Assembly: GCA_013151255.1 (NCBI GenBank)
Contig: JAADIQ010000098.1
Coordinates: forward strand, 1 to 64,000
Length of the DNA stretch: 64,000 nt
Source of the DNA: Alphaproteobacteria bacterium
Lineage (GTDB): Bacteria > Pseudomonadota > Alphaproteobacteria > Caulobacterales > Parvularculaceae
Direction: 5' to 3'
The notes under the pieces were generated by a model. It worked only from the letters and a program-made list of their open reading frames with translations, did no database searches and had not been told where the DNA came from. The position numbers and the translations under genes are program-made. Below, piece after piece: positions 19,078-48,325 of this stretch (position 1 is the stretch's first letter; the number at the start of each line of letters is the position of its first letter).

Positions 19078-21306
19078 CTATTTACCGAAACTAACTTTCA
19101 ACTCTACGCCATATTTGCGCGGCTGGTTGAAGTATCCGTTCAAAGAAATCGTTTGCAGCCGATAGACTTCATTGGTCAGGTTTTTGCCAAAGGCGCTAAG
19201 TTGCCAGCCATCGCCGCGCACCCCAAGGCGCGCATCGACAAGAAAGAAATCATCAAGCTCACGGCCTGTCGCTGACGTCGTTCCGCCAGAAGCATTCTCA
19301 AAGCCGCCGCCTTCTGTTTGCAAGCTACCGCCCATAAACCAGTCAACCGAGTCTGCAAGCGGCGCAAAATAAAACGCATTTGCCTGGATCACATAGTCTC
19401 GCGTTCGATTGACGCGCGCGCCCGATAGATCAATCGTTTCAATAACCGGGCCGCCTCCACTGGTGGTAATCAGCGAGCCATCGGAAAAATCGCCCCGGGT
19501 CGTCGCCGCACTGGCGCCCCAACGAAGTCGCCCCGGCCCAGCGTCAAACGCACCAGAAACATCGGCTTCAAACCCAAAAATATTGGTGTTTCCGACATTT
19601 TGAAGAGCTGTCGTCGTTGTGGTTGTGTCCAGCGTAGATACAGCCTGCACATCTTTGGTAACTACGTAAAAACCGGTGAAACCAAATCGCACCCCGCCTT
19701 GCGTGGCGCCCTTCCAGCCGGCCTCAAAAGAATACGCAGCCTCAGGATCGTAAGGAATAAACTGAGTATTACTTACATCAAGACCGGTATTGAAGCCGCC
19801 AGGCCGGTAGCCGCTTGCTGCGCGCAGATAAATTATCTGATTATCCGAAACACTATAGTTGAGCGTTGCGGCGGGCAAGAACCGTGTCCAGCTTTCCTCC
19901 AAGTCACCTGTGGCAAGTATTATTGAGCCGCTTTGATTGCGCGTAAAATTAAAATCCTTATTGTCATTTTGAACGCGCGCTTCCAATGTCAGTGACGTAG
20001 ATTGCGCAAGGCCAAACTCAACCAATCCGAAACCAGAAACCGATCTCAGTTTTTCAACAAACATATCTTGCCGAGTTGCAAGCGCTGCGAGCCCGCCCAG
20101 CCCTGAAGTCCCTCCGTTTGTGGTAACGACATCATCATTTGAACTTAGGAAGTCAGCGCCAATCAGCCAGGTGACCCCTGAGCCAGACTTTGACGCCAAG
20201 CGAATTTCGCCAACAAAGCGTTGATAATCTTCCGTCTGTGCGGCGGTGAGGTCCGTGGTGACACCGCCTACGTCAATGCCTTGAAAACCAATGAAGCTGT
20301 CGAGGTCTTCGTTAAAGCGGTTTCCATCCCTTTGTTTGTAGGAAAATATCGCTGTGAAATCACCGATAGCGAGATCGGAAGTCAAATCTGCAAACACCGC
20401 CGTAGAGTCGATCTCCACAACACCGATACGGCTGTCGTTGGTCTGATAGGGACCAGGGTCGGCGTCTCCGGTTTGCCCGGCTGCATTTCTGCCGGTGAAG
20501 CGTTGGCCGAGCGCACTAAAGCCGGGCGCTGTACTATCGTAATACTCGACAAGGACATTCGCAGTCGTGGACGGTGACAGGTCCGCACGCAGCGCGCCTC
20601 GCAGGCCAAGATAATCTCTTTGATCGACGGCGTCGCCAGTGTTGACATCGGTAATGAAGCCATCGTTTTGATCAATATAAAAAGCGCCTAGCCGTGCGGC
20701 TACGTTTTCACCCAGTGGCGCATTAACTATTCCGGATACTGAGTATCGTTCGGCGCTTTCATACCCTGCTTTTATTTCTGCCGTCGTTTCATCGGTAGGC
20801 TTCTTGCTGATGACGTTGATTGCGCCGCCCACGGCATTACGACCGTACAATGCGCCTTGAGGTCCGCGATATGTTTGAACATTATCAAGGTCAAAGAAAT
20901 CTAGTCGATTGAACGACCGCCCGCCAAACCCGCCGCCTGCGATATAAACGCCGTTGCGATAGATGCCTGTTGAGGATTCAGAAAACCCTTGGCGCCCGCC
21001 GCCCTGACCGCGAATTGAAATGTCGGATAGATATTCCGGCCCGCCATTCACCAAAATTGCATTGGGAATTTGTCGAATGTAGTCGGCGATCCCATCGAGC
21101 GCCAAGAGATCGGCGTCTTCACCTCGCAACACGCTGATGCTTGAGGGAACATCTTCAAGCGATTCTTCTTTTTTTCGGGCCGTGACAAGAATTGTATCTC
21201 GCGCATCGACGGCGTCTGCGTCTTCTTGCGCCATGGCGCCAGGAACTACAGCGCCGGACCCCAACGCTGAAATAATCGCTGCCGTGGTAAGTAATTTATG
21301 GTTCAT
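19078..21306 (-). CDS. TonB-dependent receptor
   Basis: ARDTILVTARKKEESLEDVPSSISVLRGED plug; YRGPQGALYGRNAVGGAINVISKKP; C-terminal KYGVELKVSFGK. Confidence 0.95.
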   Translation of the reverse strand: MNHKLLTTAAIISALGSGAVVPGAMAQEDADAVDARDTILVTARKKEESLEDVPSSISVLRGEDADLLALDGIADYIRQIPNAILVNGGPEYLSDISIRGQGGGRQGFSESSTGIYRNGVYIAGGGFGGRSFNRLDFFDLDNVQTYRGPQGALYGRNAVGGAINVISKKPTDETTAEIKAGYESAERYSVSGIVNAPLGENVAARLGAFYIDQNDGFITDVNTGDAVDQRDYLGLRGALRADLSPSTTANVLVEYYDSTAPGFSALGQRFTGRNAAGQTGDADPGPYQTNDSRIGVVEIDSTAVFADLTSDLAIGDFTAIFSYKQRDGNRFNEDLDSFIGFQGIDVGGVTTDLTAAQTEDYQRFVGEIRLASKSGSGVTWLIGADFLSSNDDVVTTNGGTSGLGGLAALATRQDMFVEKLRSVSGFGLVEFGLAQSTSLTLEARVQNDNKDFNFTRNQSGSIILATGDLEESWTRFLPAATLNYSVSDNQIIYLRAASGYRPGGFNTGLDVSNTQFIPYDPEAAYSFEAGWKGATQGGVRFGFTGFYVVTKDVQAVSTLDTTTTTTALQNVGNTNIFGFEADVSGAFDAGPGRLRWGASAATTRGDFSDGSLITTSGGGPVIETIDLSGARVNRTRDYVIQANAFYFAPLADSVDWFMGGSLQTEGGGFENASGGTTSATGRELDDFFLVDARLGVRGDGWQLSAFGKNLTNEVYRLQTISLNGYFNQPRKYGVELKVSFGK

Positions 21307-21380
21307 GTCTTCCTCCCAGAATTATGATTGGTCAGGCGGTTTTCAAAACGCTAGGCATGGGAGAGGCTCTTGTCCACACT

Positions 21381-21392
21381 ATTGTAGACAAT
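21381..21392. promoter_or_regulatory. candidate GntR operator ATTGTAGACAAT
   Basis: Inverted repeat ATTGT-AG-ACAAT between divergent TBDR (start 21306) and GntR gene (start 21626). Confidence 0.55.
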
Positions 21393-21625
21393 TCTGTAAG
21401 CAAACACGCATAATTTTAATCATGTGGCAATTTTCACACGATCCTCGCCGCGTTCTCTAGTGAAACCTGCTAACTGAGGCGAGCATGCGGCTGTTTTCAT
21501 GAATCTGCCGGCTAAAAAAGGGCAATAAGGCGCGCATTCTTTTTGAATAGCGGCGGAGAAATTGAAGGTTTCTATTTGGAATGACAATGTTGTATGCAGG
21601 ATTGCCAACAAAAGGAACGAGACCT

Positions 21626-22279
21626 ATGCCGCAACCTGCAGCAAAACGACTTACGTCGGACGATATTGTGTTTGAGATGATCAAGCTGTTGCAGAAGAAG
21701 GTGTATCAACCTGGCGACCGGCTACGCGAACAGGAGCTCGCCACCAGGTTTGGCGTGAGCCGCGGTCCCATTCGTGAAGCCTTGCGCGCGCTGGAAGCAA
21801 AATCACTGATCAAAATAGAGCCGATGCGCGGCGCCTCCGTAACCAGGCTGAGTGACAAAGACGCAATAGAAAGCGTTGAAATTAGCGCCACTCTGTTTGG
21901 CTTGGCTGCGAATAAGGCGGCCGGGTGTGAACAACATTTCATTACAAAACTGCGAACGCAATTGAAAACGCTAAATGACATGGTCAATCAAGACACCTCT
22001 GCGAAAGCTTTTTTTCTGCAGACCATCAAAATGGGCATGATCGTCGTAAAAGCTGCGGGCAGCGATCGATTGGCGGCATTGCTCTCGGATATCCGCATCG
22101 GCGCCCCCGATCTGTTCGGCCCTTTTGGCTTTACGTCATCAACGTTGCGCAAAAAAGCAGCGACGAAATGGGCGCGAATGATAGATGCAATCGAATCTAA
22201 TGATGTGGATGCGGCGGAAAGAATCGCGCGCGAGCTCAACATGGATTCGCTAAAAGCCGCTCTTGAAATTGTCGGGTGA
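21626..22279 (+). CDS. GntR-family transcriptional regulator (FadR/FCD-like)
   Basis: LQKKVYQPGDRLREQELATRFGVSRGPIREALRALEAKSLIKIEPMRGASVTRLSDKD winged-helix block; start MPQPAAKRL more plausible than 21581. Confidence 0.9.
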   Translation: MPQPAAKRLTSDDIVFEMIKLLQKKVYQPGDRLREQELATRFGVSRGPIREALRALEAKSLIKIEPMRGASVTRLSDKDAIESVEISATLFGLAANKAAGCEQHFITKLRTQLKTLNDMVNQDTSAKAFFLQTIKMGMIVVKAAGSDRLAALLSDIRIGAPDLFGPFGFTSSTLRKKAATKWARMIDAIESNDVDAAERIARELNMDSLKAALEIVG

Positions 22280-22419
22280 ACACGCAGGATGCTTTTGAGG
22301 ACTGGCGCCATTTTGTGTGTGGCGCAAATAATGTGCAACGCCCCTCGCGCTGCCAGCAAAGCGGTCAAACTATAATTGGCGCAAGCAAATGCGATCGCCG
22401 ATAACCAGGGGAGGCTCGG

Positions 22420-23991
22420 TTAATCGTTCTTTGGCGCTTGTGTCGATTGTTGTCGATCATAGAGGTTACGCCAATCTTCTGGCGGAAGCGGTAGCTGGCG
22501 GCTGTCCTTTTGTCGCGCAGGCTCAAACGCCGGACGCGGCTTGTCGGAGCGGACCTGTTCGAGCCAGAAGACGCCATCATATTCGCCGCTATTGCCACGC
22601 GTTGCAACGAAATCGATATCGCCATCGCCATCCATATCGTGCGGAATGAATTCGTCATACATGCCTCTTATCCGTCGCGAGATATCATGGCGAATCCATT
22701 CATTATACGGATTACCTGTATTTTGAAACCAGGTGATGCGGCCAACAGAAGAGGCGGCGGTAACGTCTGGATCGTCGTGATCACGCGCGGCGCCGGAATA
22801 TCCGCCGTCAAGCACATTCAGACCGGAATAGCCGCCAGCCATCACATCCAGGTCGCCATCATTGTCGATATCGGCAACGGCGAATCCAACGATTACATCC
22901 GGCATAACATCGCCAATTGTGAAGAACCGCCAAGGGTCTGAAAGACGGGCCGGCTGCCTTAGCCAGCCCAAGGAAACGACGAGCTCGTCAGTTCCATCTT
23001 CGACGATCACCATCACAAGATCAGTGCGCGCGTCGGCGTCCAAGTCAGCGTCCGCAGCATGAAACACATTTGTGCGTCCGCGCCATCCGGGCGGCATGTC
23101 CGCCCCGGGCGCTATTTCGATTGGTTCTACCGCCCACCCGCGCGCGCGTCGATCCGCCCGATCACTTTGTACGAGTAGCAGCGCCTTGTAGGTCAATCGT
23201 GATCCAGTTAAAATATCGACATCGCCGTCACGATCAATATCGATGGGCATTGCCGTATTCGGCACGCCAGCATCCCATAGTTTCATTTCCACCCATGAGC
23301 TTTGGTCAAGCGGATCACTGGTGATTTTGAAAACGGACAATACGCCGCTGCGGGCCTCTCCCGCGCTTACATCGATGACGTCAACGCCGCCCTTATTCGC
23401 AGCCAGAACTTCCGGCATGCCGTCGCCGTCCAGATCCGACATGAACACACGAAGCCATGACCCCCGGTTTTTAGTAATCGACGGAATTATGCGCGCCCAG
23501 ACGCCCCGGCGAATCTGGCGGCCGGGATTTTGTAGGTAGATGAGGTGACCGCGCTCGCAAGCAGCGACAATGTCAATCCAGCCATCGCGATTGAGATCGC
23601 CGAGTGCAACGTCCTCAATGGCGTTGACCTCTTCACCAAAGGCAACGGTGGTAAGAACCCATTCGTTCGGGTCATCCGTACCAAAAGCAATACGCAAATG
23701 ATCTGAATCCTCGTGAACGGATATGATATCAATATACCCATCGGCATCCAAATCCGCGAGCTTTAGCCCGTCGCCGCCGCGTATTGGAACGCCGCCATTG
23801 ATGTCTTCACCATCAATGAGATGCTCCGTCCAGGAAATATACGCGCCGTCGGGCGTTTGCGCTTGGGTCGGCGTCGAGGCGATGTTTTGCTGTGCAGGAG
23901 CGAGGCTTAATTTCTGGCTGCATCCGGACGCAATCATAAGCACAACGAATGTGATCAGGAAAAGGGGGATAGCAGAACATCCAGACTTCAT
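22420..23991 (-). CDS. FG-GAP/VCBS repeat lipoprotein
   Basis: LIASGCS-like lipobox (LMIASGCSQ); repeated Asp-rich motifs LADLDADGYIDIIS, LGDLNRDGWIDIVA, MSDLDGDGMPEVLA, IDIDRDGDVDILTG, VADIDNDGDLDVMAG, PHDMDGDGDIDFVA. Confidence 0.92.
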   Translation of the reverse strand: MKSGCSAIPLFLITFVVLMIASGCSQKLSLAPAQQNIASTPTQAQTPDGAYISWTEHLIDGEDINGGVPIRGGDGLKLADLDADGYIDIISVHEDSDHLRIAFGTDDPNEWVLTTVAFGEEVNAIEDVALGDLNRDGWIDIVAACERGHLIYLQNPGRQIRRGVWARIIPSITKNRGSWLRVFMSDLDGDGMPEVLAANKGGVDVIDVSAGEARSGVLSVFKITSDPLDQSSWVEMKLWDAGVPNTAMPIDIDRDGDVDILTGSRLTYKALLLVQSDRADRRARGWAVEPIEIAPGADMPPGWRGRTNVFHAADADLDADARTDLVMVIVEDGTDELVVSLGWLRQPARLSDPWRFFTIGDVMPDVIVGFAVADIDNDGDLDVMAGGYSGLNVLDGGYSGAARDHDDPDVTAASSVGRITWFQNTGNPYNEWIRHDISRRIRGMYDEFIPHDMDGDGDIDFVATRGNSGEYDGVFWLEQVRSDKPRPAFEPARQKDSRQLPLPPEDWRNLYDRQQSTQAPKND

Positions 23992-24085
23992 AAAAGCCGT
24001 ACTGTTTTTAGAGCCGCCAACCAACGACTACGCGTTTTCATAGTTTGTATTCCTGCAAGCGCAAAAGACATAGAAATGCCTTGTT

Positions 24086-24119
24086 ATTATAGAAGATACG
24101 ATATAGTATCACCTATAAT
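24086..24119. promoter_or_regulatory. 34-bp dyad-symmetric candidate operator between divergent genes
   Basis: ATTATAG-AA-GATAC-GATATA-GTATC-AC-CTATAAT. Confidence 0.6.
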
Positions 24120-24233
24120 CGCGGCCGACAACAAGAATTAAGACGTTTGGCGCGCTCCAAATTTTTGACAGGCCGTTTGCGCCGGCAACGCTAACGAAAA
24201 CCGCATCGAAGCAAGTAAGGACACCATTTAGCG

Positions 24234-26114
24234 ATGGCTCAATGTGACGGTTCAAAAATTTTAACAACACCGACAAGAATTTTCGCCGCTGCCGTGGCGC
24301 TTGCTCTCGCTTTAGCCGGGCTGAGCATCACAAGCCGTGCTCACGCTCAGGAAATGCAGCTTTATTGGGGCGACACCCATGTGCATACGAATTATTCTTT
24401 CGATGCTTATCTGTTTGGAAACAAAACCGCCGACCCAGACACAGCATACAGGTTCGCAAGGGGTGCGCCGGTTTTGCATCCGGCAACCAGGGTGCGGATC
24501 CAGTTAGATCGCCCCCTCGATTTTTTGACTGTAGCCGATCATGCCGAAGCGCTTGGCGTTATCAGACGCCTGGACGCCCGCGACAAAAGAATACTCGAAA
24601 CTCGGTTTGCCAAAGAAAACAAAGCGGCGTTTGCTTCAAATAACGGCTTGGAAATTTTTCGCCGCCTTGCGCAAGGGCTTAGCAAAGGCGAAAACCATGA
24701 TTTATATTCGGAGTTGCAAACCCCTGAAATTCTGGCGCCAGCGTGGAATGACGTGATTACCGCCGCTGACCGAAATAATCGGCCAGGTGAGTTTACCGCC
24801 TTGATTGGTTGGGAATGGAGCTCTGCGCCAGGCAATGCGAATTTACACAGAGTCGTCGTAAGCGACGCCAATGCGAGCACTGCATCGAACTTTCTACCCT
24901 TTTCTGCGATTGATAGCCAAGACCCTGAAGCGCTGTGGAGGTTTCTATCGGATACTGCATCCGAATTTGGCGTCAATTTTGTTTCTATACCTCATAATTC
25001 AAATTTATCGCGCGGCCTCGCCTTTGCTATTGAAGATGTCAACGGTCAACCGATTACAGCAGATTATGCGCGCAGGCGGATGATGTGGGAAAGAGTGGTT
25101 GAGGTCACTCAAACTAAGGGCGATTCCGAAACACATCCTGTTTTGTCTCCAACCGATGAGTTTGCCAATTTTGAATTCTATCCATTTCTAGTCTCTGGCG
25201 GTCAATATGGTGATGACGAAGAAATCAGCGGCGGAAGTTATGCTCGCTCAGCGCTAAAGCGCGGCTTGGCGATTCAAGGAGAGACTGGCGAAAACCCGTT
25301 TCAATTTGGCATGATCGGTTCAACCGACGTCCATACCGGCCTTTCTACAACTGGCGAACGCGAATTTGCCGGCAAGCTGCCAATGATGGCGACGCCTGAG
25401 GCGCGATTAGATCGAAAAAAGAACCTCGGTGATGACAGGGTCAATACGTGGGACATGGGGGCTCAAGGCCTTGCGGCTGTCTGGGCGGAAGAAAATACGC
25501 GGCAATCGATCATCAACGCGTTCCGACGGCGTGAGGTTTATGCGACGACGGGTTCAAGAATTATGTTGCGGGTGTTTGCGGGGGCATCGCTCAGCCCACG
25601 AATAATCAAGTCTCGAAACTGGATAGAAAAAGCCCGCTCAAAAGGAGTGCCGATGGGCGGAGAGCTTTTTGGCGGCGACACTGAAAAACCCCCAACGTTC
25701 CTCATTCAAGCCGTAAAAGACCCGCGCAGCGCCAGCCTTGACCGCGTGCAAGTGATCAAGGGGTGGCTGGATTCCTCTGGCGAAATGCATGAACAGGTCT
25801 TCAATGTCGCCCTGTCCGGTGATCGTATCATAGCCGCTGATGGCTCAGCGCCGGCATTGCTCGACACAGTCAACCGTGAAAATGCAAGTTATGACGCCGC
25901 TTCCGGCAATACAGAGTTTCTCGTTGCCTGGACCGATCCTGTCTTTAGAGCTGATGAACCAGCCTTCTATTATGTGCGCGTTCTTGAAGCGCCAACGCCG
26001 CGTCATTCCCTCTACGACCAGGTAGCGCTGCAAGAAACCATTCCAGGAAATGTGACGCTGACCCTGCAGGAGCGCGCTTACAGTTCTCCCATCTGGTACA
26101 CGCCCGCCCAATAA
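24234..26114 (+). CDS. DUF3604 domain-containing secreted protein (PHP-like metal-ligand pattern)
   Basis: Signal-like N-terminus; LYWGDTHVHTNYSFDAYLFG, DFLTVADHAEALG, VSIPHNSNLSRG, IGSTDVHTGLSTTGE. Confidence 0.9.
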   Translation: MAQCDGSKILTTPTRIFAAAVALALALAGLSITSRAHAQEMQLYWGDTHVHTNYSFDAYLFGNKTADPDTAYRFARGAPVLHPATRVRIQLDRPLDFLTVADHAEALGVIRRLDARDKRILETRFAKENKAAFASNNGLEIFRRLAQGLSKGENHDLYSELQTPEILAPAWNDVITAADRNNRPGEFTALIGWEWSSAPGNANLHRVVVSDANASTASNFLPFSAIDSQDPEALWRFLSDTASEFGVNFVSIPHNSNLSRGLAFAIEDVNGQPITADYARRRMMWERVVEVTQTKGDSETHPVLSPTDEFANFEFYPFLVSGGQYGDDEEISGGSYARSALKRGLAIQGETGENPFQFGMIGSTDVHTGLSTTGEREFAGKLPMMATPEARLDRKKNLGDDRVNTWDMGAQGLAAVWAEENTRQSIINAFRRREVYATTGSRIMLRVFAGASLSPRIIKSRNWIEKARSKGVPMGGELFGGDTEKPPTFLIQAVKDPRSASLDRVQVIKGWLDSSGEMHEQVFNVALSGDRIIAADGSAPALLDTVNRENASYDAASGNTEFLVAWTDPVFRADEPAFYYVRVLEAPTPRHSLYDQVALQETIPGNVTLTLQERAYSSPIWYTPAQ

Positions 26115-26175
26115 GAGCTTAAATTACTCGACATTTTATTCTGGACAACCGGAACGAAATCAAAAACGAAGCATA

Positions 26176-26853
26176 ATGTCAAAAAACAATAACACGGTAA
26201 CGAAGACGCCTGACGTTGAAACAGTGGATGGCCGCACGACGCGTTATGCCTCTCATAGAATACAACGTCGGGAGGCTCTGCTTGAGCAAACAACTGTGCT
26301 CTTGGCGAAATATGGGTTGCGCGCTTTAACGATCGACGACATCGTTGAAAGGCTGGATATAGCCAAGCCTGCTCTTTATCGCTATTTCAGTTCGAAAGAA
26401 GATCTGATCCGGGCTACGCTGACCCGCGCCCGAGAAGATCTTGTGGAGGCGGATATGGCGGCTGACAATAGTGATTGGCGGCTGCAATTGCTCGGCGCCA
26501 TTCGTTTCATCGCCGTCCGACCCGAGGCTTTTATAGTCTTATACCGGCACGCCGCTAATGATCCGGAATACCACTCGTATTTCAAGGCATACTTCGATCA
26601 AGCGTCGGAACTCACGTTGGAACGTCTTGTCAGGTTTTCTGCAAATAGTCCGGACACGCCAGTTAGCTTCGATTTTTGCGCACGCGCGCTCGTATCATTT
26701 ATTTTCAGCGCAACACTAACATGGATTGAAGATGGGGCTTGGGAAATCAAGGCGTTTCACAAATGGCTTGTGCTTTCAGCGGTCGCACTTACCGAAAGCT
26801 GGGCGGTGTTCACATTCGAATCCGCCGCTGAAGAAGAAAATTTCGGCCAGTAA
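26176..26853 (+). CDS. TetR/AcrR-family transcriptional regulator
   Basis: REALLEQTTVLLAKYGLRALTIDDIVERLDIAKPALYRYFSSKEDLIRATL. Confidence 0.92.
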   Translation: MSKNNNTVTKTPDVETVDGRTTRYASHRIQRREALLEQTTVLLAKYGLRALTIDDIVERLDIAKPALYRYFSSKEDLIRATLTRAREDLVEADMAADNSDWRLQLLGAIRFIAVRPEAFIVLYRHAANDPEYHSYFKAYFDQASELTLERLVRFSANSPDTPVSFDFCARALVSFIFSATLTWIEDGAWEIKAFHKWLVLSAVALTESWAVFTFESAAEEENFGQ

Positions 26854-26987
26854 CCTCGACATTCAGATAGCTTGCACGCCGTGACCCAACCCGCCCAAGA
26901 GCATTGCCGTGCTGAGCCCTTAATTTGGGCCCGAAAAAAATTTACCGCCGCAACCGCAACGGCATCAGTCTGTTTGAGGACAAGCAT

Positions 26988-27983
26988 ATGCAAAAAAACA
27001 AAGCCTTTATCAAAAGACAAGCGGAGGAGCCTAGGCTTTTGGGGGGCACGGGGAATAGCCGCGATAAAGGCCGAGCCACGAGTTTGTTTTGGTCTGCAAA
27101 GCGGCTATTTAGCGACCCGCTTACTCATTTTCTGATTATTGGTTTTATTATATTTTCTACCATAACCGCTTTATCGCCGGACGAGAACGAGGCGGTCATT
27201 ATTGTCGATGACGCCGCTATCTTAACGTATATTCAGTATCGTTCGAAAGCATTTGATGAAGAAAGCGCATGGGCGGCATATCGCAATCTTAGCGCTGATG
27301 AGAAAACCACATTAGTCAATGACTATGCCCGAGAAGAAGCGCTCTACCGTGAGGCAAAAAAACTTGGCTTTGAAAATGGCGACTACATCATACGTCAGCG
27401 ATTGATTCAAAAACTCGACTTTATCGCTGAAGCTGGTTCCATTCCACCATCACCTGATGTCGCGGAGATGCTTGAATTTTACACAAACAACAGCGATGAA
27501 TTCAGCGAGCCGGAACGCGCGTCATTTACACACATATTCTTTTCAAAGGACGGCAGTTCATACAACAATGCTTTGGTGCGCGCGCGCGCTGCTCTTTCCG
27601 TAATTGAGCGAGCGGAAACGATGCAAGATGGTAGCGAATATGGAGACCGTTTTCTTTATCAATCAAGATATACCAACCGAACGCATGATCAGATTGTTGA
27701 TATGCTTGGCCCCAAGGCTGCCGAGTTAATTTTTTCGCCAGAGGCATCAATAAATCAATGGGTTGGGCCGGTAACATCTCATCATGGCGTACACCTCATA
27801 TTCATTTCGAGCCGGCGCGCACAAATGACCGAACCGTTTGAAGCCGTGCAGGATATTGTAGAAGATCGAATGAGGCGGGAGGAGATCGCCAAGCGAAAGG
27901 CCGATTACATCAGGCAAATCGTCACCAACTATCAAATCAAGACCAAGCTATCGCCGCTGCACGATGCTGGCTTCACTGAATGA
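26988..27983 (+). CDS. membrane-anchored PpiC-type peptidylprolyl isomerase family protein
   Basis: Single TM (THFLIIGFIIFSTITAL); REEALYREAKKLGFENGDYIIRQRLIQKLDF; SEPERASFTHIFF; NQWVGPVTSHHGVHLIFISSRRAQMTEPFEAVQDIVEDRMR. Confidence 0.8.
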   Translation: MQKNKAFIKRQAEEPRLLGGTGNSRDKGRATSLFWSAKRLFSDPLTHFLIIGFIIFSTITALSPDENEAVIIVDDAAILTYIQYRSKAFDEESAWAAYRNLSADEKTTLVNDYAREEALYREAKKLGFENGDYIIRQRLIQKLDFIAEAGSIPPSPDVAEMLEFYTNNSDEFSEPERASFTHIFFSKDGSSYNNALVRARAALSVIERAETMQDGSEYGDRFLYQSRYTNRTHDQIVDMLGPKAAELIFSPEASINQWVGPVTSHHGVHLIFISSRRAQMTEPFEAVQDIVEDRMRREEIAKRKADYIRQIVTNYQIKTKLSPLHDAGFTE

Positions 27984-28978
27984 AATTAGGATTGAACATA
28001 GTTCTTGCCGGTCTAATACTCATCTTTAGCCAGGCGGCGTTTATAGCACGCGCCGAAGCCCATGAGGCTCGCCCCATCTACATTGAACTGACGCAAACGG
28101 GTCAATTTACTACCGTTTATTGGTCGACGCCGCCAACGCTTGCACAACGCCTCGCACCTAGAATTTCACTGACCGGTTGCAATTTGATCAAAGTGGTTGA
28201 TGGCGCCGCGTCCAGCGCCAACTTCCTCTCCTACAAATGCGCCAGCGTTTCCGGTCGGGTCTTGAATCTGGATTTTCCGTCTTACAATCCGTCACTCTCA
28301 ACAGTTATTAAGTTGCGCAAAGATGGAAAGAACCAGTTTGTCACTTTGGTCCCAGGCGTTTCACAATGGGTTGTGCCAGAAAATACAACCGGCGGCCAAA
28401 TCATCAAAGACTATTTCAGGATTGGGATCCAACACATTCTTCGCGGCGCCGATCACCTCCTGTTCCTCGCCGGCCTGATGTTTATCGCGCGCACGCCGGC
28501 AAGGATTTTGACCACCGTTACCGGTTTCACATTGGCGCATTCTCTCACTATTTTCCTAACGGCATTTAATATTATTCAGGCGCCTATCTTTGCGACCGAA
28601 ATTATTATCGCTTTGTCCATAGTTTTTCTTGCTAGCGAGATCGCTCGTAACAACAGGCAAACGCTCACCTGGCGCAGACCAATATTTGCAGCGTCAATCT
28701 TTGGTCTGTTTCATGGAATTGGGTTTGCTTCAGCTCTGGGTGAGATTGGGTTGCCGCAAACGGATCGAATTTTCGCTCTTGTTTTCTTCAATCTAGGCGT
28801 GGAGGCTGGCCAGATACTAGTTGGCGTCGCCCTGTTTTCTGCAGCGCGCTTATTCCTCGTATGTTTCGATCAAAAGAGAAGCGATACAATGAAACCGCAT
28901 TTGCAGACAGGCTTAGCATATATGCTAGGTATCGTATCTTCTGCCTGGTTCTTCGAAAGGCTTTTAAGTGCGGCGTAA
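27980..28978 (+). CDS. HupE/UreJ-family membrane protein
   Basis: FRIGIQHILRGADHLLFLAGLMFIARTPARILTTVTGFTLAHSLTIFLTAFNI; overlaps stop of preceding gene. Confidence 0.88.
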   Translation: MKLGLNIVLAGLILIFSQAAFIARAEAHEARPIYIELTQTGQFTTVYWSTPPTLAQRLAPRISLTGCNLIKVVDGAASSANFLSYKCASVSGRVLNLDFPSYNPSLSTVIKLRKDGKNQFVTLVPGVSQWVVPENTTGGQIIKDYFRIGIQHILRGADHLLFLAGLMFIARTPARILTTVTGFTLAHSLTIFLTAFNIIQAPIFATEIIIALSIVFLASEIARNNRQTLTWRRPIFAASIFGLFHGIGFASALGEIGLPQTDRIFALVFFNLGVEAGQILVGVALFSAARLFLVCFDQKRSDTMKPHLQTGLAYMLGIVSSAWFFERLLSAA

Positions 28979-29095
28979 CAACCCGGCGGGTTCAATTTCG
29001 ACTCGCTAACAACACAGCTCACTTTCAATTGTTTTGGATATACGCTTCCGCTCACCCTTTGCGTTGCGGTAAGAAATCCTGTTGCTCACTTAGCT

Positions 29096-29133
29096 AAAAA
29101 ATGAAGTGGCGGTGTCAAGAAACCACCACTTCA
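29096..29133 (-). terminator. Rho-independent terminator for the 29.2-kb serine hydrolase gene
   Basis: Arms 29102-29113 and 29122-29133 (12 bp, one mismatch), loop GTCAAGAA, followed on the minus strand by TTTTTT (A run at 29096-29101). Confidence 0.75.
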
Positions 29134-29239
29134 AGTTTCAGGGAGAGATCGAGCTTTTTTAAGCAAATTAGGTCGGCGCCCACAGCAGAGATTATAGACC
29201 CCGACGATACATTTCGCAGAGATGGGCAAACTTAAGAAT

Positions 29240-30211
29240 TCAATTGAAATAGGCCTCGCGAACAGCTTTTCCGCACACGTAGCTATTTTGAAAATTTGAG
29301 CTGTCTGTAGCGATAATACCGTAGCGTCCTTTACCGGCGCTAATCCAGGGATAAAATCCCAAGGCGCCAGGACTAGAGTAGGCGCCGTCACCAGGGCTCA
29401 AGGGCGTGCCATTGGGAAGCACGCCACCGGTGTTATCTTCAATCCAATGGTACAACGAATAATGTAGATCGACTGTACCAAACGGGCTGTTGCAATTCGC
29501 ACATTGGGTTGTGACAGGGCTGTCGCCTAAATAGGCGGACATTACGTAGGTCCCCTTCATAATGCCTTGAAGAAACGCAGCGTAATCGGCAGCACTTGCG
29601 CGCATGCCGCCGGCTACAGCCGGCATGTTATATGAAAAGTCGGAGCCAAGATTTAGAAAGCTGTTTATTTCGGTTAGCAGGGCGTTTGCATCTTTGTTCC
29701 CAAGCCCTAGCAGGTTGGACTTTGCGGCCGCGTACTGGCCATCACCGCCCCCATAGTTGAAAAAACCAACCTTACTGGGATCAACAACGTCATTGTTTCC
29801 GACTACGTAGCATCCATAGACTTTGTTAGCGAGAGCACACGAACCAGGATTAAAACTTGTATGGCCTTCCTTCATGTTAAGCGAGGATATTATTGTCGCT
29901 CCGGACGGCCCGGCAGGCAGCCCTCCATAACGCTGCAAGACGTAAGCGCCGAATATCCATTTTGAAGCTGATGCAATTCCAATTTGCGTGTTTCGGCCAT
30001 AAGTATTTCCGCCGACCTGTCCAGAAATGATCGGCCCACCCCATTTTCTGCCAATCTCCCAGTAAAATGGCTGCACAGCATTACATGCTGACCCGTTTGC
30101 TGCTGCGATAGCCTCTGGTTTTCCCGCATGAGCGATCGAAAATACGCTGGCGAGACCGACAAAGGCTGATGCAAGCAGTTTGAATATTGCAGCCCGGTTT
30201 GATTTTCTCAT
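29240..30211 (-). CDS. secreted beta-lactamase-superfamily-like serine hydrolase (SxxK)
   Basis: Signal peptide; IGIASASKWIFGAYVL (SxxK); six Cys in the mature region; C-terminal PGALGFYPWIS shared with the neighbouring gene product. Confidence 0.7.
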   Translation of the reverse strand: MRKSNRAAIFKLLASAFVGLASVFSIAHAGKPEAIAAANGSACNAVQPFYWEIGRKWGGPIISGQVGGNTYGRNTQIGIASASKWIFGAYVLQRYGGLPAGPSGATIISSLNMKEGHTSFNPGSCALANKVYGCYVVGNNDVVDPSKVGFFNYGGGDGQYAAAKSNLLGLGNKDANALLTEINSFLNLGSDFSYNMPAVAGGMRASAADYAAFLQGIMKGTYVMSAYLGDSPVTTQCANCNSPFGTVDLHYSLYHWIEDNTGGVLPNGTPLSPGDGAYSSPGALGFYPWISAGKGRYGIIATDSSNFQNSYVCGKAVREAYFN

Positions 30212-30272
30212 GAACGAATCTCCCGTTTCTTTAGGTTGAAACTGAATTTAAGGACTGCTTGCACCTTTTCAT

Positions 30273-30284
30273 ATTGTTGACAAT
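30273..30284. promoter_or_regulatory. candidate GntR operator ATTGTTGACAAT
   Basis: ATTGT-TG-ACAAT, about 62 bp upstream of the serine hydrolase start at 30211. Confidence 0.55.
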
Positions 30285-30582
30285 TATGCAAACAATATTT
30301 GACGACAGAATTGAGGTGGTTTTTCGCATGAACTTCAGATGCCAAACCTGAAGCGTCCGTTCATGAGGAAGGGGCCCGTAGAAGTTGGTCGTTCCTTGCC
30401 ATCGCACCCAGCGACGACCGCCGCCCTATAGGAAAGCGCCCATCATCTTCGAATGGAATGATCAGCTGGTCGATAGTCGATGAGCGGCAAAAAGAATTGG
30501 TCGTCTGCAGTCGTTTCATAGACGTCTGAAATTAAATCTTCACCGAAGATTGCAATCAATCTCCGTTGTTCGGCGCGCGACT

Positions 30583-31674
30583 TCAAAGGCAGTTTTCAAT
30601 ATTTTTTATCAACACACGCTCCGCATCCACAACACGGTTCAATCTGCTTTTTATAAAAATAACGCCCCATGTGCCGTCCGTTCGGTCAATCCACGGGTAG
30701 GCCCCCCAGGCGCCAGCGGAATGAACAAATTTACATGCGCCCCCCACGGTTTCATAACCTTCACACCAGCTGCCAAGACCATAGCTTGACCCGGTCACAA
30801 CAGCATTAGGCGCGAAATCAATCCTAGCGTCTCCGACTTGATCAGAAAACATCTGATCGATTGAGGCGCTGCTAACAATATCCCCGCCGCCAATACTTAA
30901 AGTATGTATGAGCGCGGCAAAGTCTCTGGCTGAAATAAATAACCCGCCGCCCAACATCTCACGACCAACTTCCGGGCCGCGCAACGGGCGCCCCCAAGCT
31001 GCTGTCTTTAAACCAAGGGGGCCGGCAACGCGCTCAGCGAACAGCGCTGACCAGTTTTTTCCCGTGATTTGCTCAGCAATGGCGCCGGCAACCTGCATAG
31101 AGCTGCCGCCATATCGAAAGGATGTTCCAGGCGGCGCTAGCAGCTTCGGCGCAAGCATACGCCGCGCAACGGATTGGGCCCCGCCCTTACCGGTGTCTCG
31201 CCTTATCAGCCTCGGTGCGATGCCGGACGTATGCGCCAGCAATTGCCGTAATGTGATGGATTTTTTGACGGCGTCAATTTCCGGAAAATATTCGCCAATT
31301 GTCGTGTCGAGCTTGATTTCTTCGCGGTCGACAAGCGTGAGAAGCGTTACCGCCGTCGCCCATTTAGAGGCGCTTGCGATGTTTATGGCGTCATTGGCGC
31401 CAAAATTGCCGTATTGGTTGGTATACTGAGCGCCATGCGCGTTTCCTGCGATGACAATAAATCCGTTGCTCCTCGGCGCCGATCGCAGTGTCGAAAAGGA
31501 CGTCTGCGTTGTTTCTTCGTCATTGACACATTGGGCGATTTTCTTTCCAGCTGATAGAATCGCAGCAGTATTTTCAACATTTGCTGCGTCATTACTGGTC
31601 GCGGTAGAACAGGCCGCAAGGGCCTGCATTACCGTAAAGACAAAGGAAAACAGAAGCTGGCGCGGGTAATTCAT
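30583..31674 (-). CDS. serine hydrolase, beta-lactamase class C-like, predicted lipoprotein
   Basis: INIASASKWATAVTLLTLV (SxxK); LRQLLAHTSGIAPRL; FRYGGSSMQVAGAIAEQITGKNWSALFAERVAGPLGL; HSAGAWGAYPWID. Start MNYPRQLLF (31674) gives a lipobox-like ALAAC; the longer ORF (31749) would run through the operator. Confidence 0.88.
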   Translation of the reverse strand: MNYPRQLLFSFVFTVMQALAACSTATSNDAANVENTAAILSAGKKIAQCVNDEETTQTSFSTLRSAPRSNGFIVIAGNAHGAQYTNQYGNFGANDAINIASASKWATAVTLLTLVDREEIKLDTTIGEYFPEIDAVKKSITLRQLLAHTSGIAPRLIRRDTGKGGAQSVARRMLAPKLLAPPGTSFRYGGSSMQVAGAIAEQITGKNWSALFAERVAGPLGLKTAAWGRPLRGPEVGREMLGGGLFISARDFAALIHTLSIGGGDIVSSASIDQMFSDQVGDARIDFAPNAVVTGSSYGLGSWCEGYETVGGACKFVHSAGAWGAYPWIDRTDGTWGVIFIKSRLNRVVDAERVLIKNIENCL

Positions 31675-31705
31675 GAGCAGGCTTTCCTTGATGCGAAGCT
31701 CCAAT

Positions 31706-31729
31706 AATGTAGACATTATTGTTAACAAT
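31706..31729. promoter_or_regulatory. two abutting candidate GntR operators AATGTAGACATT + ATTGTTAACAAT
   Basis: Inverted repeats 31706-31717 and 31718-31729, just upstream of the start at 31674. Confidence 0.6.
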
Positions 31730-31974: not shown

Positions 31975-33573
31975 CTAATCGTCAAATCGTTTTCGGCTCA
32001 TGCGGGCGACCGGTTTATCTTCTACTGGCTGGCGCTCATTCGTTTTTCCAATTGAACAGACAATGGCCGCGACTATGACGCCGACGCAAAGCTTCCAAGG
32101 AAACGCGATGTTTTTCATCGCTTCGGGAAGCCCTAATATATCGATCATGAATGCTTGCTGCGCCAGGATTACAAAGAACCCGATAATCAGCGCTGCGATG
32201 ACTGAGTTCGCTGAGCCTCTATTGGTGAAGACCGCAACGAAAAAGACGCCAAGCAGACCTGCATAGGCGAAGGTCATGACCGATAATGCAAATTCCAACA
32301 ACGGCATTTGTGCATAGCGCTGCCAATAGAAACAAATCGCGGACATTAGAAAGAGGCTGAGCGCAAAGGCGGCCATGCCTATTCTGCCTGCATTGACAAA
32401 ATGACTAGGGGCGAGTTTCCGGCGTCGTTCTATCCAGGGGCGGTAAAAATCTTCAATCAACACCGATGACATCGAATTCAGGCCTGAATTCAAAGTTGAT
32501 ATCGCGGCGGCCAGGACGCCCACCGTAACCAGCCCGCGCAAGCCCGACGGGATTTCGCTAAGGATGTAAAACATAAAAACGGTGATGGTCTCGCCCTGAA
32601 ACTCGCTTGCAACGCTCATCGTATCCGCGCGGGCCATTAGGTCTGGCCGTTCATAAAAAATGTGCAGCAGCTCGCCAATCGAGACAAACACCCAGACCAG
32701 CGGAATGGCGATCAGTACAGAGAAAATAATCGCTTTTCCCCCGCCTTTTTCATCCTTGCAGGAGAGCAAACGCTGTGTCGTGTCCTGGTCGAGCCCGAAA
32801 TTGCCGACATAAAGGAGGAAGACGCCAGTGCCGACGGCCCATATGGAAAATGGTTGGCTGAATGAGAATGAAAAATCGATCAGCGTGAGTTTGTTCTGGC
32901 CTGAAGGCGTGTTGGCGAGCGCGTCGAGAATATCGACGAACGGCAACGGAATTTGCATCCGCAGATATATCAATACGCCAATCGCGGCCCCGGCATAGAT
33001 AAGAAACTGGATGAAATCGCTCCAGATTACAGACCGAATGCCGCCGACAAAGGTAAACACAAAGCCGAGCAGCACAATCGCGAACGAAGCGGTGATAACG
33101 CTTGTCGCCGCGACATCTGCGAACAGGATCATGGATACAGCGATGGCCGCCATATAAAGCCGCGCGCCATTGGCGAACACCCGGCCGACGAGGTACATGG
33201 CGCCGGCGGCTTTTGTCGCCCGGTCTCCAAACTTCACAGCTAAGAGTTCATAAACCGTCGTCGCCCGAATGGCGTAAAAGCGCGGCACCAGGATTTTTGC
33301 GACAAAGACCGCCGCGAGGAATGCGCCGATAAAGGTGCTGAGATAGGTATAATCCCCTCGATATCCGTAATCGGGACCGCCAAGGAATGTTGCTGCGGAC
33401 TGGGTCGTGGCGAGAACGGAAATCGTCACCAGCCAAAGCGACATTTCATTGCCGCCGAGAAAATAGTCCCGTGAGCTTGATGCGCCTTTTCGAGAAAAGA
33501 ACCAGCCAAACATCGCGAGTATGACGAGATACCCGACGACAACCATCCAGTCAGCAAGAGAAAATTCTGTCAT
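31975..33573 (-). CDS. sodium:solute symporter (SSS family)
   Basis: 532 aa, multi-TM; SLADWMVVVGYLVILAMFGWFFSRKGASSSRDYFLGGNEMSLWLV; AAISTLNSGLNSMSSVLIEDFYRPW. Confidence 0.93.
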   Translation of the reverse strand: MTEFSLADWMVVVGYLVILAMFGWFFSRKGASSSRDYFLGGNEMSLWLVTISVLATTQSAATFLGGPDYGYRGDYTYLSTFIGAFLAAVFVAKILVPRFYAIRATTVYELLAVKFGDRATKAAGAMYLVGRVFANGARLYMAAIAVSMILFADVAATSVITASFAIVLLGFVFTFVGGIRSVIWSDFIQFLIYAGAAIGVLIYLRMQIPLPFVDILDALANTPSGQNKLTLIDFSFSFSQPFSIWAVGTGVFLLYVGNFGLDQDTTQRLLSCKDEKGGGKAIIFSVLIAIPLVWVFVSIGELLHIFYERPDLMARADTMSVASEFQGETITVFMFYILSEIPSGLRGLVTVGVLAAAISTLNSGLNSMSSVLIEDFYRPWIERRRKLAPSHFVNAGRIGMAAFALSLFLMSAICFYWQRYAQMPLLEFALSVMTFAYAGLLGVFFVAVFTNRGSANSVIAALIIGFFVILAQQAFMIDILGLPEAMKNIAFPWKLCVGVIVAAIVCSIGKTNERQPVEDKPVARMSRKRFDD

Positions 33574-33647
33574 GGCATATTCGTTCTGACTGTCGGGTTA
33601 GCTTATTGAGTGTCCATATTGGGCATAGCAAATTTTAGGCGTTACGC

Positions 33648-33686
33648 AAAAAAATGCGGGAGATGACACCGAAGTATCATCTCCCG
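33648..33686 (-). terminator. Rho-independent terminator downstream of TBDR
   Basis: CGGGAGATGA / TCATCTCCCG (33657-33666, 33677-33686); minus-strand T run corresponds to A run 33648-33654. Confidence 0.8.
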
Positions 33687-33763
33687 TCAGGACTGGCGCC
33701 GCCGCTCGGATGATGTCGGGAGAAAACATCTCGTCCCGTACGGAGCAAGCCTCTGTAATCGCC

Positions 33764-36475
33764 CTAAAAGCGCGCGCGAACCGTGGCGCCAAATGAACGC
33801 CCAACCGCATCATATTCACTAACCGTTCCGAAGAAATTGCCCCCGGAGAGCGGCACGGGCGGTTCTTTATCGAAGATGTTTTTGACGCCAGCCGTCACCC
33901 TGACATTGTCGGTGACGTCATAGGTGCCGGTCAGGTCAAAATAGTCCTGGGCGTTAATGGTATCGGTCGCATCGCCTGCGTTTCGTACGCCGCCGATCCG
34001 GCGCCAGCTCAACTGAGCGCCGAACGCGTCCATCGCCCAATCCAGGTTCGCGCGATGTTTGTAGTCCGGCTGAAGGAAGCTGGCGAAGTCGCCGCTGCAC
34101 GAGCCGCCGAATGTGCCTTTACAGTCGGTCGACGCAACAGTGGCGTTGGCTTGCCGGCTTTGAGCGGTAACGATTGTCGCCGAATAAGTCAGCCGAAACT
34201 GTTCTGCGAGCGTTCCCATAATATCCAATGGAAGCGTCAGGCCTATATCCAGCCCTTCTTGTTTCAGGCTCGCCAAGTTGAAGTCATTGACCAGCGCCTG
34301 GCTGATCAAACCCGTTCCCGGGTCCCGCAGGACAGCGCCACAAAGTGGATTGTCCGCAACCGGATTATCAATATAGCAATCCGTCAGGGCTGCTATCGGT
34401 TGGATCTGGCTCACCGCATCAGTGATTTCAATATTATAATAATCAACCACCAGGCTCGCGCCGGGATAAGCTTCAGGCGTCACCACCACGCCAACGGTAA
34501 TTGTTTCACCTTTTTCGGTGTCGATGGCTGGGTTGCCGCCGAAGCTGTAAATGGCCTGGCTGGTGTCGAAGGGCGTCCCCGGCGCCGCGGCGCCTTGTGC
34601 TGCGCATTGGGCTGCATCGCCGCGCCCATCCAAACAGGGATCGCCGTCAAACCGGCCGCCGAGACGCGGAATGAAGCTTGCGCTTGTTGGGTCGAAGAGA
34701 GCGAGCGACAATTGCACTTCGGGGCCTGCGAACTCACCCAGATTGGGCGAGCGAACGGTGGTTTGGCGCTGTCCGCGGAAGCGGATGGTGTCGTTTACGA
34801 CCCATGTGCCGCCGAACTTATCCGCGTTGCCCTTACCGGTTGTCGAAAAGTCGAACGAGCGAAAAGCGCCCTCAAAGTTCAACTGCTGAATGAACGGCAA
34901 GTCCGACAGGATTGGAACCAAAACTTCGCCAAAGACTTCGTTTGTATCAAACCCGGCATCGAGCGAGCTGACGCCGCCCAAGCCAAAAGCAAGACCGTTT
35001 TGCAAAGCAATCCCCGGCGTTTGGCGACCGGTTTCCTTGCGATACTCATAGCCGCCAGCAAAGCCTATAGGGCCGGCCGGCAATTCAAAGACATCGCTGG
35101 TGTCACCGGAAATAACGATTGAGGTAACGAACTGGTCGCGCGTCCTGTTGGAATGCACAATATCGGTTCCAAAACTGCTTAGATCTGCATTCGGACCAAA
35201 TATGTCCACTGTATCGGCAATGGCGCCAAACCGGCTGTTTCCACTTCCGTCGTTGACTATCGCATTATTAAATACGACGGCGTTTTCTTCCGCGCGCCCA
35301 TATTGGACATAAGCGTCCCATGAGACGTTATCGGTGATGGCGCCGCGCAATCCGCCGACGATTTGGAACGTATCCCGGCTGGTTTCCGTTCTTTGCAAGC
35401 CGAGACCAAGATTGCGCTCGACATTCACCGTCGCATTCCCGCTGCCATCGAAGGTCAACAGGGCGGCCGCCGCTGCCGGCAAGAATGGGTTTGTGTTGGA
35501 AATCGTCACTTCTTCATTGACGCTGATGGGCGTCTGCCCGGTCGATCCGGCGCCGGTCACATTGATGTCGGTGAAAAACGCCCGTCCATAGACCTCAACA
35601 TTGCTGAACAATTCATAGTCAAACAAAAGGCTAGCGTTGAAACGCGTCATCGGCTGGATCAGGAACCGATCAGGGGTGACATTGACGGTTTGCCGCGTCG
35701 TGCCGAAATTTCCGGCTTCGTCAAAGGAGAAGAAATTTCCTGAGGCGACATCCGTAAAGTTTCCGCCTTCAGACGGAATAGCTGTCACCGTTCCCGCGGT
35801 GAAGTCTCGCTCGCCGGCGAGAAGTTCAAAACGCTCAGTATACCCTAAATAAGCAACGACATGACCGCGCCCATCATGGATGTCGCTGCCAGCGATAAGC
35901 TCAGCTTGAATAGATTCGCCGCCGCCATTGGGCACATCGCCGGTGACAGAAAGCTGAAGGCCGTTAAAGTCATCATTGAGGATAAAGTTGACAACGCCGG
36001 CAACAGCATCCGCGCCATAGATCGCCGCTGCGCCGCCGGTCAGCACTTCAACACGTTTTATCAATCCGGTTGGTAGGCTGTTGGTGTCGACAGCATTGCG
36101 GAAACTAAACGGAACCGCCCGGGTCCCGTTCACCAGAACCAGCGTCCTGTTCTGGCCCAGGCCGCGCAAGTCGATGGTCGAGGAGCCGAGCGAATCGCCA
36201 ACCGCCGCGCCCGTCGCATTGGCGCCGCCGCCGGCTTGCGGAAGGCGCTGGAAAATATCTTCGATGGTTACAGATCGATCCGTAGCGATTTGTTCGGCGT
36301 CAATAGTGGTCACTGGCGTTGGCGACGTCAGTCCGGAACGGGCGATGCGCGAGCCCGTGACGAGGATTGTATCGCGCGCGTTATCTGTCGCTCCATCTTG
36401 CGCGGCGGCTTGCCCGCTGATGGCGAAGACAAGCGACGTCAGGCTCACCGCGCTTAATAAAACTGATCTTTTCAT
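33764..36475 (-). CDS. TonB-dependent receptor (long form)
   Basis: MKRSVLLSAVSLTSLVFAISGQAAAQ signal; ARDTILVTGSRIARSGLTSPTPVTTIDAEQI; GAAAIYGADAVAGVVNFIL; C-term GRSFGATVRARF. Confidence 0.95.
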   Translation of the reverse strand: MKRSVLLSAVSLTSLVFAISGQAAAQDGATDNARDTILVTGSRIARSGLTSPTPVTTIDAEQIATDRSVTIEDIFQRLPQAGGGANATGAAVGDSLGSSTIDLRGLGQNRTLVLVNGTRAVPFSFRNAVDTNSLPTGLIKRVEVLTGGAAAIYGADAVAGVVNFILNDDFNGLQLSVTGDVPNGGGESIQAELIAGSDIHDGRGHVVAYLGYTERFELLAGERDFTAGTVTAIPSEGGNFTDVASGNFFSFDEAGNFGTTRQTVNVTPDRFLIQPMTRFNASLLFDYELFSNVEVYGRAFFTDINVTGAGSTGQTPISVNEEVTISNTNPFLPAAAAALLTFDGSGNATVNVERNLGLGLQRTETSRDTFQIVGGLRGAITDNVSWDAYVQYGRAEENAVVFNNAIVNDGSGNSRFGAIADTVDIFGPNADLSSFGTDIVHSNRTRDQFVTSIVISGDTSDVFELPAGPIGFAGGYEYRKETGRQTPGIALQNGLAFGLGGVSSLDAGFDTNEVFGEVLVPILSDLPFIQQLNFEGAFRSFDFSTTGKGNADKFGGTWVVNDTIRFRGQRQTTVRSPNLGEFAGPEVQLSLALFDPTSASFIPRLGGRFDGDPCLDGRGDAAQCAAQGAAAPGTPFDTSQAIYSFGGNPAIDTEKGETITVGVVVTPEAYPGASLVVDYYNIEITDAVSQIQPIAALTDCYIDNPVADNPLCGAVLRDPGTGLISQALVNDFNLASLKQEGLDIGLTLPLDIMGTLAEQFRLTYSATIVTAQSRQANATVASTDCKGTFGGSCSGDFASFLQPDYKHRANLDWAMDAFGAQLSWRRIGGVRNAGDATDTINAQDYFDLTGTYDVTDNVRVTAGVKNIFDKEPPVPLSGGNFFGTVSEYDAVGRSFGATVRARF

Positions 36476-36912
36476 GGAATTCCCTCCCAGCGTATGATTA
36501 ACCAAAATTCTCGGCCTCTAAACCGTATAGATACCAATAAAACACCATTTTGGACCATTTGCAAATTCAGGCAAATGCTTTTTGTGATGGCGAGGCGCCT
36601 CTGTGACAAATTCGCAACGGCTCAGATAGCGCTGCCGATGTCAATATTTAAGTGATTCAGTGCCTTTCGCGATGTTGGCAGCCACAGAATCCACCGATAC
36701 CAATTTTTATGGATGCCGCCGCCAGGTGGAATCAGACGCGAAAAAGAAGGGCTTGAAGTGGAAGGCCATGTAGACATATATAATACCACTCGGTCATAAT
36801 TAACGATGCGTGCTGCGTTGAGGAGGGTTTTTGCCGCCTGCGCAGTAAGTTTCGACGCGCGCTGGCGCGCGATCGCAAGACGACGAGCACGACCACTACA
36901 AAGGAGGCTGCC

Positions 36913-37800
36913 ATGTTTTATCTGGGCGTAGACGCAGGCGGCACCCATTGCCGGGCGCAGCTGATCAATGAAGATGGCATCCTGGTCGGCTTTGGCGAAG
37001 GCGGGCCCGGCAACACCCGACTTGGCATTGACGCATCATTTGCAAGCATTGAGCAATCCTTTCGGCAGGCCTGTCAAAGGGCGCAGTTGGAATCGCATCA
37101 GCTTACGCAAATTGCAGCGGGACTGGGCGTCGCCGGGGTGGAGCGCGACGGCGCTAAGGAAAAATTGCGAACATGTCCGTTCCCGTTCAACACGGTTGAG
37201 ATTGCGAGCGATGTGGAAATTGCGAATTTGGGCGCCCATAGCGGTCAGGATGGCGCCGTCGTTATCGTTGGTACGGGAAGCATTGGGTTCGCGCGTTGTA
37301 AAGGCGAAACGTTTCGTGTCGGCGGGTATGGTTTTCCGATTTCCGATGAAGGCAGCGGCGCCTATCTTGGATTGCAGGCTTTGCGTGTTACGCTCAGGGC
37401 CGCAGACGGGCGGATTTCCGGAACCAACTTCACAGAAAATCTTTTTGGTGATTTTGACGCATCCTCCAGGAAGATTGTCGCCTGGATGGATGAAGCCGGG
37501 GCGACGGAATATGCAACGCTCGCGCCGAAGGTCGTTGAATATGCCCGCCAGGGAGACAAAATCGCTGCTGACCTTATGCGTCGTGCGGCTGAACATGTGA
37601 ACGCGATGGTGGAGAGCTTGTCAGACTGGGGCGCGCCGCAATGTTCTATCATTGGCGGTCTCTCGGAGCATATTATTGACTGGCTTCCGCATCGGACAGC
37701 CTCAAACATCAAGCCGCCGGAAGGCCAACCGATCGATGGCGCTATTCTTCTCGCCAAGACCCTCACGACGACAAATCGCCTCGCGCCCTCCAAACAATAA
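36913..37800 (+). CDS. BadF/BadG/BcrA/BcrD-type ATPase, probable N-acetylglucosamine kinase
   Basis: MFYLGVDAGGTHCRAQLINEDG; VGTGSIGFARCKGETFRVGGYGFPISDEGSGAYLGLQALR. Confidence 0.88.
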   Translation: MFYLGVDAGGTHCRAQLINEDGILVGFGEGGPGNTRLGIDASFASIEQSFRQACQRAQLESHQLTQIAAGLGVAGVERDGAKEKLRTCPFPFNTVEIASDVEIANLGAHSGQDGAVVIVGTGSIGFARCKGETFRVGGYGFPISDEGSGAYLGLQALRVTLRAADGRISGTNFTENLFGDFDASSRKIVAWMDEAGATEYATLAPKVVEYARQGDKIAADLMRRAAEHVNAMVESLSDWGAPQCSIIGGLSEHIIDWLPHRTASNIKPPEGQPIDGAILLAKTLTTTNRLAPSKQ

Positions 37801-37816
37801 CCGGCCTTGTTCAAGC

Positions 37817-39019: not shown

Positions 39020-39069
39020 CGCGCCTTCACCGCCATAGACGCCCCGCTCGCTCACAAGAAAGCAATGGC

Positions 39070-41261: not shown

Positions 41262-41264
41262 GCC

Positions 41265-42356: not shown

Positions 42357-42565
42357 GCAGGTAAAGAGTTTGCGGCCTTGCGCGAGCCCCCCGTCAGCGC
42401 AGCCGTTTGCCTGCCGGGCCCAATAATCCGCCTGATTTTCCGGCGTTTACCATAATCACTGGCTTTACAAAGGTATAGCACCAATTTAATACATATTATG
42501 GGCCGCGTTGGCGACTTTACTATAGGTTTTCTGAGGCGGCCGTTTGCGTGGAGCCAAATTAGCCT

Positions 42566-43477: not shown

Positions 43478-43488
43478 GGAATTTCTCC

Positions 43489-44208: not shown

Positions 44209-44293
44209 GAAAGCCCCCGCGGGGAGAATTGCCTTTGCGTTGAATACGCAACTGGATTGTTGAGCAAAAATTTAAAAACACCTGTTATAGATT

Positions 44294-48261: not shown

Positions 48262-48325
48262 CCTCGCAATATATGAGTTGCTACTATTTGTGCGCTGACC
48301 ACGCCTTCTAATTTCGCGAGCAACC

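Follow-up and report, generated by a model that had tools for sequence, protein, structure and literature searches.

The 64,000-bp stretch of Alphaproteobacteria bacterium DNA analysed here (assembly GCA_013151255.1, contig JAADIQ010000098.1, positions 1 to 64,000; hereafter the window) very probably carries a local regulon in which a repressor of the GntR/FCD type controls a TonB-dependent outer-membrane receptor (TBDR), two serine hydrolases (SH1 and SH2) and, more weakly, its own gene, with induction by a small molecule. The receptor and hydrolase genes share a short palindromic box, ATTGTNNACAAT, of the form ATTGT-N2-ACAAT around a TTGT-N2-ACAA core. A sequence-only reading of the window had held that FadR/FCD proteins bind short inverted repeats of this shape, and the core indeed fits, with a 2-nt spacer, the published FadR-subfamily operator consensus TKGT-N2/3-ACMA (Suvorova et al. 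2015, PMC4494728). The genes and sites concerned are the following:

19078..21306, minus strand: TBDR with Pfam Plug and beta-barrel domains, divergent from the GntR gene.
21369..21392, minus strand: candidate double operator of the TBDR, gene strand ATTGTCTACAAT-AGTGTGGACAAG, proximal edge ~62 bp before ATG 21306.
21589..21612, plus strand: probable weak autoregulatory double site, GTTGTATGCAGG-ATTGCCAACAAA, degenerate, just 5' of the GntR ATG.
21626..22279, plus strand: GntR-family regulator of the FadR/FCD type, 217 aa (Pfam GntR 1.9e-16, FCD 7.9e-06).
29240..30211, minus strand: SH1, exported serine hydrolase with a predicted serine beta-lactamase/penicillin-binding protein (PBP)-like fold, signal peptide read by eye.
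30273..30296, minus strand: candidate operator of SH1, strong box ATTGTTGACAAT (30273-30284) and weaker abutting box TATGCAAACAAT (30285-30296).
30583..31674, minus strand: SH2, beta-lactamase-family (S12) serine hydrolase and predicted lipoprotein (Pfam Beta-lactamase PF00144, 8e-36).
31706..31729, minus strand: candidate double operator of SH2, gene strand ATTGTTAACAAT-AATGTCTACATT, 32-55 bp before ATG 31674.

The window has three exact copies of ATTGTNNACAAT (21381, 30273 and 31718), where dinucleotide shuffles predict 0.07 (the sequence-only reading had put the chance figure at about 0.06 per 64 kb); none of 100 shuffles reached three or more. All three copies stand at the coordinates and in the promoter positions first described, 32-86 bp before the start codons of minus-strand genes, one for a TBDR and two for serine hydrolases. 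Nor is the motif frequent across the genome (3,121,887 bp in 131 contigs, 92% complete): a pattern search returned four exact copies in 3.12 Mb, of which the three promoter-positioned ones fall within 10.4 kb. The remaining copy, within the coding sequence of an ilvH-like gene, was considered as an operator candidate and set aside.

Each window box is one half of a 24-bp double operator made of two 12-bp palindromes arranged head to tail at 12-bp spacing. Such a double site had been noticed upstream of SH2, where ATTGTTAACAAT (31718-31729) does abut AATGTAGACATT (31706-31717); it is not, however, peculiar to SH2, as the 21381 and 30273 sites are double too. At the receptor promoter the main box ATTGTAGACAAT (21381-21392), 75-86 bp before the TBDR ATG, is abutted by CTTGTCCACACT (21369-21380), while the strong SH1 box begins 62 bp before ATG 30211, the distance originally estimated for the 29.2-kb serine hydrolase, with its weaker partner on the far side. 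The likely start of SH2 is ATG 31674 rather than the mechanically assigned TTG 31749, judging by the preceding AAGGAAAG and by a signal peptide and an LAAC lipobox, both recognised by eye, and it is this start that places the double site at the distance listed. Allowing up to two mismatches, the 24-bp pattern matched only the three window operators in 3.12 Mb, with scattered chance matches at three mismatches; having been written from window and Marinicaulis flavus sequences, the pattern has only descriptive value in those two genomes.

A weight matrix built solely from the boxes of other genomes ranked 30273, 21381 and 31718 first to third in the 64 kb (18.7-20.2 bits; next best 14.8), a test of cross-genome consistency rather than blind discovery, as the matrix sites had been chosen for likeness to the window motif. 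When two-box scores were summed over offsets of 10-13 bp, the three operators came top at 27.0-28.7, against 12.3 for the best site elsewhere. The mean flank signal around 12 primary boxes peaked at 12 bp (z > 2 at 8 of the 12 sites), which is supporting rather than independent evidence because some of these sites had been seen beforehand.

Footprinting of relatives' promoters placed an exact box beside GntR orthologues in M. flavus and in four further genomes (G335, G320, G238 and G245). In M. flavus SY-3-19, GntR, receptor and SH1 are 60%, 67% and 68% identical to their window counterparts and the GntR orthologue agrees with a start at ATG 21626. Unlike the divergent order in the window, GntR and receptor are co-directional there, and both receptor boxes are still kept, as ATTGTCAACAAT-AATGTGGACAAG, amid otherwise diverged sequence. 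The double-site pattern matched perfectly at this receptor promoter and with two mismatches upstream of GntR. The M. flavus GntR gene also has GTTGTACACAAA at the place of the 21589-21612 site in the window, its double site lying further upstream; in the window itself, the 21601-21612 box, in tandem with 21589, ranks fifth among single boxes under the same matrix.

Strong GntR orthologues in the order (E below 1e-60) were found in G335, G320 and G238, each with an exact box ~60-90 bp before a GntR-adjacent receptor 38-45% identical to that of the window. With receptors 89% identical, G335 and G320 are closely related and amount to roughly one observation; the G238 receptor start is cut from the reading frame of the contig, with GntR ~2 kb away. 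The weaker GntR match in G245 shows the same arrangement, an exact box before an adjacent TBDR. Altogether, exact boxes numbered seven in 82 kb of orthologous loci and zero in 711 kb of control loci (six around more distant or paralogous GntRs and 35 around SH1 homologues from other groups). Two conditions that the sequence-only reading had named as refuting it, a motif common genome-wide and a lack of conservation in relatives, were thus checked, and both results favour the proposal that GntR coordinates the receptor with the two hydrolases.

Several results pull the other way. The second box stands at 11 bp, not 12, in G335 and G320, and several relatives have it only in degenerate form or not at all. 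The full double pattern found no site better than three mismatches in G238, G335, G320 or G245, so that outside Marinicaulis the conserved unit is the single box, the second being looser. In G245 the GntR match (E 2.9e-30) and the TBDR (24% identity) are so distant that this case may involve a different regulator of the same type. No box within two mismatches was present at the start of M. flavus SH1, which stands behind EthD-like and pyrroloquinoline quinone (PQQ)-dehydrogenase genes. A search of 40 relatives (M. flavus not among them) found no SH2 homologue at E <= 1e-30, so that cross-species support for hydrolase control comes only from analogous hydrolases. Conservation therefore backs the receptor site, and the hydrolase sites draw on their own exact and tandem matches here and on those analogous hydrolases. 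Most genomes examined also hold at least one exact box resembling chance; M. flavus, G245 and G320 have further exact sites, mostly in coding DNA or in unclear positions, which were treated as such.

Wider searches added little: the GntR protein had no matches in the named genomes, SH1 found there only M. flavus and distant homologues without exact boxes, a class-wide search of 387 genomes at a strict cut-off gave no further orthologues, and no plasmid-borne relative was found at E <= 1e-20. A separate clade of FCD-type GntR proteins (L128 7494-8207 and 12879-13598; L129-L133), some of them near TBDRs, is without the ATTGTNNACAAT box and probably uses a different operator code.

Both the N-terminal GntR winged-helix and the C-terminal FCD domain of the regulator score above the Pfam gathering threshold. 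In a comparison of the FCD domain with 7xp0, by alignment only, the D-F-H and H-H stretches of 7xp0 align with I-K-M and K-W in the window protein, and the histidines are missing from the alignment of GntR orthologues; the domain thus appears to be without the usual metal ligands. E. coli FadR also has no FCD metal site (PMC7674646), so this does not exclude membership of the FCD group.

SH1 had no match in Pfam or NCBIfam and is therefore at most a divergent branch that would share the S12 serine beta-lactamase/PBP fold, and is not classed under PF00144. The fold was predicted with AlphaFold2 (pLDDT 86, pTM 0.85), and the best Foldseek matches of the model were 5tgf (a putative beta-lactamase, E 1e-8), followed by DD-peptidases, Est-Y29 and AmpC (TM ~0.6). 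Its S-x-x-K motif, S81-A-S-K84, is at least 90% conserved in 20 homologues. The SH1 family (L072-L106) is secreted and 32-41% identical across Burkholderiales, Nevskiaceae, Steroidobacteraceae, Myxococcota and others. Close paralogy of SH1 and SH2 was rejected, as their similarity in BLAST is weak (27% over 107 aa, E 1e-4).

In G238 and G245 the box also precedes exported alpha/beta-hydrolases with PAF-AH/PETase-like Pfam matches, one of them divergent from an MFS transporter. Further boxes in G238 precede a large PKD-chlorophyllase-type protein, an SDR/FAA-hydrolase gene set (with one mismatch) and, less certainly, a thiamine pyrophosphate (TPP) enzyme. As far as sequence comparison goes, the recurring theme is a TBDR with an exported hydrolase while the enzyme fold varies. 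Because this pairing recurs, we read the regulon as serving cleavage outside the cell and outer-membrane uptake of an ester- or amide-bearing compound.

By analogy with the FCD regulators Atu1419, DgoR and NanR, we infer repression by two adjacent dimers and release by an effector. The GntR/FCD protein (21626-22279) would be a local, metabolite-responsive regulator, most probably a repressor, with ATTGTNNACAAT as its binding site; as a rule two dimers would sit next to each other, each on one of two abutting 12-bp palindromes spaced by about one turn of the helix. When bound, it would hold off transcription of the TBDR, SH1, SH2 and, more weakly, its own gene. A small-molecule effector, probably a hydrolase product imported through the TBDR, would release it, so that cleavage and uptake are switched on together.

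A reversed or mixed sign of control, with GntR acting as an activator or dual regulator at these promoters, is unlikely, although it survives better than the other alternatives. Some FCD regulators do activate, CitO being an example (PMC4746285), and with a short leader the main TBDR box, at its distance from the ATG, could fall upstream of the core promoter. Against activation, a sigma-70-like hexamer pair at 31754-31727 overlaps the SH2 box and another, on the GntR strand, the 21381 box, both being consensus matches only, near chance frequency.

It is less probable still that this GntR operates only the TBDR and its own gene while the SH1 and SH2 boxes serve another regulator with a similar motif, such as the UTRA/HutC-type GntR at 43489-44208. 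That second GntR protein (UTRA, 8.7e-34) is encoded 12 kb away in an amino-sugar cluster, and SH2 adjoins an SSS transporter, a TBDR and that cluster, of N-acetylmuramic acid (MurNAc) type. Yet in sites of the HutC subfamily GT and AC are mostly separated by 4 nt (PMC4494728), against 2 in every box here; the GntR that goes with this box in relatives is of the FCD type, and the SH2 and TBDR sites share the 24-bp double architecture. A chance cluster of AT-rich palindromes can practically be dismissed, since, for all the exact matches in coding DNA of several genomes examined, the shuffles, the cross-genome footprint and the matrix ranking oppose it, and conservation in M. flavus, G335, G320 and G238 refutes it for the TBDR site.

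The preferred reading, a local GntR/FCD repressor regulon, is a solid fresh example of a known regulator type and not a new kind of system. Like FadR-subfamily regulons (PMC4494728), it has an A/T-rich TKGT-N2-ACMA palindrome, a local regulon with the regulator beside its target, double sites, and additional, weaker boxes at 7-12 nt from the centre of the site. Unlike those regulons, its targets are a TBDR and exported hydrolases of serine-beta-lactamase fold, predicted in the case of SH1, and the additional box, offset by 12 bp, often comes close to a full palindrome. Atu1419 of Agrobacterium fabrum, a VanR-type FCD repressor (PMC7797058), likewise has a palindrome, ATGTATACAT, with a 2-nt GT/AC spacer, autoregulation and several sites in one cluster; its palindromes are, however, separated by 190 bp (looping tetramer), and the protein binds Zn, whereas the sites here abut and the metal ligands appear absent. 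E. coli NanR (PMC8012715), another repressor of the GntR/FCD type, also has a tandem operator, to which adjacent dimers bind cooperatively; the likeness seen here is in the DNA arrangement, double boxes at 12 bp. NanR recognises direct repeats, (GGTATA)3, and depends on an N-terminal extension of 32 residues; the 217-aa window protein is without such a long extension, and its sites are abutting TTGT/ACAA inverted repeats, not GGTATA.

More tentatively, and at somewhat below even chances in our view, the clade may use an operator code of its own, in which two GntR dimers with a metal-site-less FCD domain bind two abutting palindromes at 12 bp cooperatively and coordinate TonB uptake with exported ester/amide hydrolases whose folds are unrelated, the serine beta-lactamase fold in Marinicaulis and alpha/beta-hydrolases elsewhere, which would amount to a hydrolase-swappable extracellular uptake regulon in the order. 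Searches of the open-access literature found no paper on a GntR regulon of a TBDR and hydrolases in this group, and none with the literal string ATTGTNNACAAT, which speaks only weakly for novelty.

These bacteria have many TonB receptors, mostly of unknown substrate; where a conserved operator ties a receptor to exported hydrolases, the effector and the hydrolase products should point to the substrate. The regulon also places SH1 in a functional context; its divergent family, of serine-beta-lactamase fold by prediction, is outside Pfam and NCBIfam and is present in other Proteobacteria and Myxococcota.

The remaining observations concern neighbouring genes. Between GntR and SH1 (24234-28978) lies a DUF3604/PPIC-PPIase/HupE-UreJ gene set; a similar-looking set, judged by the sequence start, occurs in G338 (L128 51-3041) near GntR, TBDR and sulfatase-like genes. 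The SSS transporter and a second TBDR (31975-36505) separate SH2 from the amino-sugar/MurNAc-type catabolic cluster (36913-45982), which encodes a BadF-type kinase, AnmK, an SIS protein, a NagA-like amidohydrolase, an acyltransferase/DUF5009 protein, a MurQ-like SIS protein, the UTRA-type GntR and a membrane D-lactate dehydrogenase. At 47329-48958, a 210-aa C-terminal TBDR fragment adjoins an alpha/beta-hydrolase open reading frame whose C-terminus is seemingly out of frame, possibly reflecting pseudogenes or an assembly fault.

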